From the NCBI RefSeq assembly GCF_010104355.1, contig NZ_CP044972.1:1240001-1304000 (forward strand): a DNA stretch of 64,000 nt, given 5' to 3'. The notes below the pieces were generated by a model. It did no database searches. It saw only the letters and a list, made by a program, of their open reading frames with translations, and was not told where the DNA came from. Shown here in pieces: positions 14,891-17,168 of the stretch. The translations under genes and the position numbers were made by a program. Position 1 is the stretch's first letter; the number at the start of each line of letters is the position of its first letter. This DNA is from Hydrogenophaga sp. PBL-H3. Lineage in GTDB: Bacteria; Pseudomonadota; Gammaproteobacteria; Burkholderiales; Burkholderiaceae_C.

Positions 14891-15442
14891 TCAGTGCAAT
14901 GTCCGCGGGCCGGGCGGTGTGATGCCCGGTCCTTGCAGTTCGTCGGGTTCGTCCACCTGCATGCGGAAGAAGCCAGTGCCCATCGAGCCCTTGCCGACCT
15001 CGGCTTCGGTCGCTTCGCGCACCGCATGCACCTTCATCGAGATGCGCAGCGCAATCCCCGCGAGCGGGTGGTTGCCGTCGAGCACCACGTGCTCGGGATA
15101 GATGTCGCTCACGAAGTAGAGCCGACCGCGCGGTGCGGCCGGGTTGCAGCCGGGGGGCAGGCCTTCGAAGCCCATGCCCTCTTCAAGCTCGTCGGGAAAC
15201 AGGTGGCGCGGCTCCAGGAAGAGCAGCGTGTCGTCGTAGTCCCCAAAGCCGTCCACCGGCTCCAGGTGCAGCTCGATCGTGTCGCCTGGTGAATGGTTGA
15301 GCAGGCCTTCTTCGATCTTGGCCAGCAGGTCGCTGCCGCCCACCAGAAACTCCACGGGTTCTTCGAGCACATCGAGCGTCTCGCCCAGCGTGTCCTTCAG
15401 GGTCCAGGTCAGCGCCACGACGCATTGTTGGGTGATTTTCAT
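14891..15442 (-). CDS. slyD: FKBP-type peptidyl-prolyl isomerase, SlyD family
   Basis: A 183-residue cytoplasmic FKBP with the insert-in-flap arrangement of SlyD: an N-terminal FKBP strand (residues 1-70 with LVGGSDLLAKIEEGLLNHSPGD), the flap domain (about 70-130) and the returning FKBP strand with VVLDGNHPLAGIALR. SlyD proteins speed prolyl cis/trans isomerisation and act as folding helpers. The His/Cys-rich C-terminal tail that binds nickel in E. coli SlyD is absent; the tail here is short and Pro/Gly-containing. The start codon lies only 14 bases from that of the divergent roxA gene. Confidence 0.88.
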   Translation of the reverse strand: MKITQQCVVALTWTLKDTLGETLDVLEEPVEFLVGGSDLLAKIEEGLLNHSPGDTIELHLEPVDGFGDYDDTLLFLEPRHLFPDELEEGMGFEGLPPGCNPAAPRGRLYFVSDIYPEHVVLDGNHPLAGIALRISMKVHAVREATEAEVGKGSMGTGFFRMQVDEPDELQGPGITPPGPRTLH

Positions 15443-15444
15443 CC

Positions 15445-15454
15445 GACAATTGTC
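15445..15454. promoter_or_regulatory. Symmetric -10 palindrome between slyD and roxA
   Basis: The 14 bases between the two divergent start codons contain the perfect palindrome GACAATTGTC. Read on either strand it gives GACAAT, a five-of-six match to the TANAAT-type -10 box, placed so that transcription would begin at or next to each ATG. No good -35 box is visible on either side. The idea of two overlapping leaderless promoters is inference. Confidence 0.4.
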
Positions 15455-15456
15455 CC

Positions 15457-16608
15457 ATGTTCAAACCCGAAACCCTTGGGCTCCAGGCCACGACCGGCGC
15501 CCCCGAAACCCCCGTGAGCCTGCTGGGCGGTCTGTCGCCAGCGCAGTTCATGCGCCGTCACTGGCAGAAGAAACCTTTGCTGATCCGCCAGGCCATTCCC
15601 GGCTTCCAACCGCTCCTGAGCCGAGCGCAGCTGTTTGAGCTGGCTGGCCGTGAGGCTGTGGAATCGCGTTTGATCGTGCGCAAGCCTCAAGGCTGGACGC
15701 TCAAGCCAGGTCCGTTCAAGCGCAGCGGCTTGCCGCCGCTCAGGCAGCCCGGCTGGACCCTGCTGGTGCAAGGTGTCGATCAACACATTGATGCCGTGCA
15801 CGAACTCTTGCAGCGCTTTCGTTTCGTGCCCGACGCGCGTCTGGACGATCTGATGATTTCATGGGCCAGCGAGGGGGGCGGCGTGGGCCCGCATTTCGAC
15901 AGCTACGACGTGTTCCTGCTGCAGGCCAGTGGTCAGCGGCGTTGGCGCATTGGTCGCCAGAAAGACCTCACCCTGCAGCCCGATGTGCCGCTGAAGATTC
16001 TGCAGAACTTCGAGCCCGAGGAAGAGCACGTGCTCGAAGCGGGCGACATGCTCTACCTGCCGCCCCGCTGGGCGCACGACGGAGATGCGATGGGCGAAGA
16101 CTGCATGACCTACTCCATCGGCTTTCGTGCGCCGCAGCGCGGCGGGTTGGCGGGTGAATTGCTGCAGCGCATGGCCGATGAACTCGACGATGAGACGCTC
16201 TACCGCGACCCGGGCCAGGTTGCGACAGCCCACCCGGGCGCCATGCCCACCGGACTTGAAGCGTTTGCCGTGGATGCGCTGCAGCGGCTGCTGGCCGAGC
16301 GGCAGTCACTGGCCTGTGCCCTGGGCGAGGTCATGACCGAACCCAAGCCGCGCATCTTTTTTGACGAGGCGCAAACGGACTGGGTGGCGGGCGCCGTGCG
16401 GCTGGACCGCCGCACCCGCATGATGTACGACCCCCGCCATGTGTTCATCAATGGTGAAAGCTTTCGAGCCGGGGGCGCCGATGCGCGCCTGATGCAGCGG
16501 CTGGCGGATCAGCGCGGCCTGGAGGCAAGGCAGGTGCAGCGCGCCAGCGATGGAGCGCAGTCGCTGTTGCAGGACTGGTTCGAGGCCGGCTGGCTGCACC
16601 GCGTGTGA
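15457..16608 (+). CDS. roxA: Cupin (JmjC-like) ribosomal protein hydroxylase
   Basis: A 383-residue 2-oxoglutarate/Fe(II)-dependent oxygenase of the YcfD/RoxA group, which hydroxylates an arginine of ribosomal protein uL16. The N-terminal segment SPAQFMRRHWQKKPLLIRQA is typical, the iron site is HFDSYDVF (His and Asp), and the second His follows in YLPPRWAHDG. A C-terminal dimerisation/winged-helix-like region of about 150 residues completes the protein. The start codon is set by the short spacer to slyD; no ribosome-binding site is present, consistent with a leaderless message. Confidence 0.85.
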   Translation: MFKPETLGLQATTGAPETPVSLLGGLSPAQFMRRHWQKKPLLIRQAIPGFQPLLSRAQLFELAGREAVESRLIVRKPQGWTLKPGPFKRSGLPPLRQPGWTLLVQGVDQHIDAVHELLQRFRFVPDARLDDLMISWASEGGGVGPHFDSYDVFLLQASGQRRWRIGRQKDLTLQPDVPLKILQNFEPEEEHVLEAGDMLYLPPRWAHDGDAMGEDCMTYSIGFRAPQRGGLAGELLQRMADELDDETLYRDPGQVATAHPGAMPTGLEAFAVDALQRLLAERQSLACALGEVMTEPKPRIFFDEAQTDWVAGAVRLDRRTRMMYDPRHVFINGESFRAGGADARLMQRLADQRGLEARQVQRASDGAQSLLQDWFEAGWLHRV

Positions 16609-16649: not shown

Positions 16650-17168
16650 ATGACCGACCCCCAGGCTGCAGACCCCGCGCCGCTGCCGTCCTTGCCCACC
16701 GGGCGCTTGCAGGGCCGTCAGGTCTTTCTTGACACCGTGCGTCAGGCGTTCGCTGCGGCTGCCGAACAAGGCTGGAACCACATCACCTTGAGCGACCCCG
16801 ACTTTGCCGACTGGCCTCTGGGTGAACGTGTCGTGGTGGATGCGCTCAACCGTTGGGCACACCGGGGGCGCACGCTGAAAATGCTGGCTCGCAACTACGA
16901 CCAGTTGCGCCTGCTGCATCCGCGTTTTGTGCAATGGCGGGTGACGTGGTCGCACCTGATCGAGGCGCACGCCTGCCACGGTGCGGCGGGTGCCGAGCTG
17001 CCCAGCGCAATCACCTCACCGGTCTGGACGCTGGAGCGTCTGGACCCGCTGCGCAACACGTTGGTGGCCAGTGTGGATGCCGAGCGGCGTGTGGCGCTGC
17101 GGGAGCGTGTGAACGAGTGCTGGCTCAGGAGCACGCCAGCGTTCCCGGCCAGCCAGCTGGGGCTGTAG
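16650..17168 (+). CDS. Conserved hypothetical protein
   Basis: A 172-residue soluble protein I cannot assign to a named family. It has no signal peptide or membrane segment. The fold looks alpha/beta mixed, with HITLSDPDFADWPLGERVVVDAL and WAHRGRTLKMLARNYDQL as the most regular parts; the second resembles proteins of unknown function that follow roxA in related Burkholderiales. It starts 41 bases after roxA with GGAG ahead of the ATG, so it is probably cotranscribed. It ends convergently with bamC at a shared hairpin. Confidence 0.75.
   Translation: MTDPQAADPAPLPSLPTGRLQGRQVFLDTVRQAFAAAAEQGWNHITLSDPDFADWPLGERVVVDALNRWAHRGRTLKMLARNYDQLRLLHPRFVQWRVTWSHLIEAHACHGAAGAELPSAITSPVWTLERLDPLRNTLVASVDAERRVALRERVNECWLRSTPAFPASQLGL

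Follow-up and report, generated by a model that had tools for sequence, protein, structure and literature searches.

A probable bidirectional promoter between slyD and roxA

The 64-kb window (the whole stretch of DNA that was analyzed), from a Hydrogenophaga-type bacterium, contains a slyD-like gene on the minus strand and a roxA gene on the plus strand that diverge from start codons only 14 bp apart. Comparison with related loci and with the rest of the genome suggests that this spacer is probably a bidirectional promoter of the sigma-70 (housekeeping) type that gives two leaderless mRNAs. RNA polymerase would engage the AT core of the spacer facing either way. For slyD, on the minus strand, it would read TGGGACAAT as an extended -10 element and start at the A of the slyD ATG, and on the plus strand it would read GACAAT without an extension and start at the A of the roxA ATG. 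Both mRNAs would begin at or beside their AUG, and the ribosome would start on this 5'-terminal codon with no need for a Shine-Dalgarno (SD) site. The slyD element is the conserved and probably dominant half, and roxA would use this core as a less strong -10. Judging from the geometry, polymerase bound in one direction would exclude polymerase from the other.

Comparison establishes the position of this predicted element, its gap to the start codons, the reading frames, its conservation and a genome-wide class of similar candidates. The sigma factor, the relative strengths of the two directions, the transcript starts and mutual exclusion are the parts of the model that we infer. No published RNA 5' ends for Comamonadaceae were found in a literature search.

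Table 1. Features of the slyD/roxA region, in coordinates of the window
Feature	Position	Strand	Basis
slyD-like gene, FKBP-type peptidyl-prolyl isomerase, 183 aa, ATG at 15442	14891..15442	-	ORF, NCBIfam PRK10737, phmmer
Predicted slyD transcription start, A of ATG	15442	-	Seventh base after hexamer
Spacer between both start codons, CCGACAATTGTCCC	15443..15456	.	Direct read
Perfect palindrome GACAATTGTC, 10 bp; two -10-like hexamers with a 2-bp overlap at AATT	15445..15454	.	Direct read
roxA -10 hexamer GACAAT, 6 nt before ATG, no TG extension	15445..15450	+	Comparison of abutting loci
slyD -10 hexamer GACAAT, 6 nt before ATG	15449..15454	-	Family loci counts, column conservation
TGn extension of slyD -10 (minus strand TGG)	15455..15457	-	Family loci, column conservation
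Predicted roxA transcription start, A of ATG	15457	+	Seventh base after hexamer
roxA, ribosomal oxygenase, 383 aa, ATG at 15457	15457..16608	+	ORF, PF08007 + PF20514, structures

Gene identities and the spacer

The names slyD and roxA given to the two genes in the first-pass annotation hold. The minus-strand product is a SlyD-like protein whose residues 1-154 align in a phmmer search with the solved SlyD structures 2k8i and 2kfw, although its score against the curated SlyD model NCBIfam PRK10737 (65.6 bits) is under the 174-bit cut-off. The plus-strand product has the JmjC_2 domain and ROXA-like winged helix of RoxA/YcfD (PF08007 and PF20514, both above their cut-offs) and matches the structures 4csw and 4ccl. 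An alternative roxA start, the GTG at 15514, was dropped in favor of the ATG at 15457, which is in frame in all 84 relatives in which roxA abuts slyD. The same genome has a second SlyD-like gene (G000:C1:1670271-1670717) that is 36% identical to the query and is found in most of the genus. The gene that follows roxA on its strand, at 16650-17168 of the window, encodes 172 aa and has no Pfam or NCBIfam match.

The 14-base spacer and its perfect palindrome were correctly described at the outset, and each strand reads GACAAT, then six nucleotides, then ATG. The sequence GACAATTGTC occurs once in the 64-kb window (0.02 copies expected from shuffles) and once in the whole 4.8-Mb genome, and 47 of the 67 genomes of the genus have it between slyD and roxA. 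Once the slyD GACAATT is given, this base composition would complete the palindrome by chance about 2% of the time, so the palindrome by itself is not strong evidence and it is the comparison between loci that carries weight. A -35 element is absent on both sides. The best match at a spacing of 15-19 is one base of six for slyD and likewise for roxA, and a promoter scan found nothing, so the initial description of the -35 regions as weak was an understatement.

The slyD element

The slyD side was examined in 80 loci from genome contigs and another 120 drawn from genera of the family to which the window belongs, which gave 190 distinct loci after identical stretches were removed. An xAxxxT hexamer precedes the slyD start in 175 of these 190 loci. 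It is GACAAT in 155 loci, and its gap to the ATG is exactly six in 146. Extended -10 promoters carry TGn ahead of the hexamer, and a TG occupies this place in 164 of the 175 loci. The T of this extension pairs with the A of the roxA ATG. Column conservation gives the TG-forming G in 71 of 72 loci where roxA abuts and 72 of 74 where it does not, and in the latter the T is present in 67 of 74. Eleven slyD loci have no roxA in the fetched DNA, and of these ten keep the TG and nine keep GACAAT.

Changes in the hexamer also fit this assignment. TATATT replaces it at the same gap in L141 and L183, as does GATAAT in L137, and a -10 element would be expected to give way to canonical -10 sequences with its distance unchanged. 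In the distant lineages L194-L196 and L200, TGCGACAAT alone remains and the AATT core is gone. Loci where roxA does not abut have no conserved -35 or other upstream block, with 0.02-0.28 bits at positions -35 to -9 relative to the hexamer. The nearest thing to an SD site before slyD is GGGA, which is weak (-3.9 kcal/mol) and poorly placed. The alignments largely support reading TGnGACAAT as a leaderless extended -10 promoter for slyD. It resembles other extended -10 promoters in having TGn and no -35, and differs from them in the conserved G at -12, which is non-consensus and counts against the promoter reading, and in the predicted leaderless start. Some lineages (L028, L029, L030, L046, L050, L115, L151 and others) have lost the slyD element, and in these roxA is more distant or was not found. 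Three of them (L029, L030 and L046) have a TACAAT further upstream.

The roxA element

All 84 abutting loci place the roxA ATG at a gap of exactly 6 nt from the roxA hexamer, and the frame that it opens runs without interruption into the region of RoxA homology. The N-terminal stretch of RoxA varies among them from about 8 to 45 residues. A start that stays in frame despite so variable an N-terminus is anchored to the element and not to the protein. The gene has no SD site (+0.4 kcal/mol). Outside the family but in the same order (L272-L299), a TATAAT-like hexamer stands 5-8 nt before the roxA ATG in 12 of 27 loci, compared with 3 for slyD, and roxA is usually still divergent from slyD. The leaderless habit of roxA would therefore be independent of the palindrome, and it may be older than that of slyD.

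It is unlikely, although not negligibly so, that the element is a leaderless promoter of slyD only, with the roxA promoter inside slyD and the roxA-side symmetry incidental. The fixed 6-nt gap to an in-frame roxA start, the want of an SD site for a leadered roxA message and the leaderless arrangement of roxA by itself in other families all stand against this explanation. On the other hand, it would fit the contrast between the two halves of the element, in which conservation is strict for slyD, including the TG, and loose for roxA. It is also compatible with the distribution of the roxA-side hexamer. An xAxAAT is found there in all 83 abutting loci that were sorted, but 8 of the 11 loci in which no roxA turned up have it too, so finding it is little evidence by itself. 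The third base of this hexamer is C, the better base, in 61 of 83 abutting loci and in 9 of 77 others. When kinship is controlled on the RoxA tree, only seven independent pairs are left (2.7 versus 0.3, median p = 0.25). The link between abutting roxA and a better roxA-side hexamer thus has the right direction, but it is based on too few independent events and is not significant.

Asymmetric conservation of the palindrome

What is conserved in the putative bidirectional promoter is not its symmetry. Among 72 abutting loci in which both gaps are six, 5 have the mirror base with which roxA would gain a TG, compared with 71 that keep the corresponding G on the slyD side. The first base of the palindrome is invariant on the slyD side and its mirror is kept in 56 loci. 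The conserved unit is consequently not the symmetry itself, with a strict slyD half and a looser roxA half, and evolution appears to track two -10 readings, slyD first, in place of a dyad. The first-pass annotation had proposed that one symmetric -10 serves two leaderless messages and had suggested aligning the spacer in relatives. Comparison largely bears out the predicted pair of messages (position, spacing and the genome-wide class) and the alignment keeps position and spacing, but the perfect palindrome is not kept as a unit.

The same annotation raised the possibility that the palindrome is a regulator site. A perfect 10-bp palindrome between divergent genes is what the operator of a dimeric regulator of both might look like, yet this explanation is now very improbable. 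The sequence has a single copy in the genome, and its 12 other copies across the 67 genus genomes are at chance level (10 for a control). Those copies are mostly in unrelated places, many of them within long open frames. The conserved bases are distributed asymmetrically and match the -10 reading and not the dyad, and some lineages have TATATT or GATAAT in its place or have lost half of it at an unchanged gap. Neither symmetric conservation nor copies at other promoters beyond chance level, the marks of an operator, were found. There is equally little chance that both messages start inside the opposite gene and have leaders, with the conserved block serving RNA structure or translation, for the weak GGGA upstream of slyD is set against a roxA without an SD site, a hexamer-ATG gap fixed at six and the bare upstream sequence of the non-abutting loci.

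A putatively leaderless gene class in the genome

Both readings of the spacer agree with a pattern in the genome at large. An 864-kb sample (L202-L241 plus the window) contains 716 called genes and 896 candidate ATGs. Hexamers resembling a -10 are found 31 times at a gap of 6 and 24 times at a gap of 7, compared with 3.8 per other gap (P < 1e-11), and starts with a hexamer at gap 6-7 make up 54 genes, or about 7% of those called. The hexamers of this class are most often GACAAT or CACAAT, and at gap 6 GACAAT ranks first (9 of 31). A strong SD site accompanies 9% of leaderless-type starts, which is the level at internal ATGs, and 37% of other genes. Genome-wide, GACAAT-N6-ATG occurs 28 times, mostly at the head of long ORFs, and its reversed control does not occur. 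These counts indicate that a general class of putatively leaderless genes exists in this genome.

No -35 consensus is present among the leaderless-type promoters in the 864 kb. The first-pass annotation had suggested that an activator may be needed at the slyD/roxA spacer, but it overlooked the TG-extended -10 of slyD. Given this extension and a class of promoters with no -35 consensus, no activator need be invoked.

Sharing of an element seems to be particular to this locus. Of the 28 GACAAT-N6-ATG sites, slyD/roxA is the only case with one element common to two genes, and among 26 candidate ATG/ATG pairs with a spacer of up to 60 bp in the 864 kb no other shares a leaderless element. One divergent ATG/ATG pair, 57 bp apart (G000:C1:660115/660173, in coordinates of the 864 kb) has leaderless-type hexamers on both sides, as separate elements.

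Relation to known promoters

Bidirectional bacterial promoters were reportedly described by Warman et al. in 2021 (as cited in PMC10268837). They have one pseudo-symmetric -10 region that is used in either orientation, one binding event excludes the other, and the divergent starts are 7-25 bp apart (PMC10268837, PMC12825309), with common spacings of 18, 10 and 23 bp (PMC12825309). The slyD/roxA spacer is like them, as far as sequence can tell, in its near-symmetric -10 region on both strands. Its predicted start spacing of 15 bp is within the 7-25 bp range but is not one of the common values, which counts against the proposal. The typical 18-bp form shares -7T/-11A, which is not required, whereas the slyD and roxA hexamers overlap by two base pairs at AATT. 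The slyD/roxA element also differs in that both products are predicted leaderless mRNAs of conserved genes, and in that the T of the TG extension, present on one side only, complements the start-codon A of the other gene.

In TA-led leaderless genes the -10 lies some 12 bp ahead of the start codon (Zheng et al. 2011, PMC3160421), and in the related B. cenocepacia dRNA-seq has proven leaderless genes whose -10 stands immediately upstream (PMC4603805). Both sides of the slyD/roxA spacer have a putative -10 at this distance (gap 6), and neither has a well-placed SD site. The genes described here are like TA-led genes in their hexamer 6-7 nt before the ATG and their lack of an SD site. They differ in that the TA-led hexamer is TANNNT, whereas in this genome its first base is usually G or C (GACAAT, CACAAT), and in that two such genes share one element at slyD/roxA.

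A more specific reading, to which we give even weight for and against, is an interlocked leaderless pair. The base pair at the A of the roxA start codon would give the T at -15 of the extended -10 of slyD, so that both start codons and both promoters would fit within 20 bp and polymerase could not avoid choosing one direction or the other. This 15-bp configuration would be one kept across many genera, outside the common ones described.

Significance

Bidirectional promoters have been defined from transcript maps, and their second product is often a non-coding antisense RNA. At slyD/roxA, the way the sequence has evolved indicates that each direction serves a conserved gene and that both start codons are tied to the promoter. 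The element appears to be an extreme, family-wide version of the bidirectional bacterial promoter, and the spacer would be a small, naturally occurring system in which to test how polymerase selects a direction. A sizeable class of putative leaderless genes with GACAAT-type -10 elements also matters for start-codon annotation, because gene finders based on SD sites can misplace such starts.
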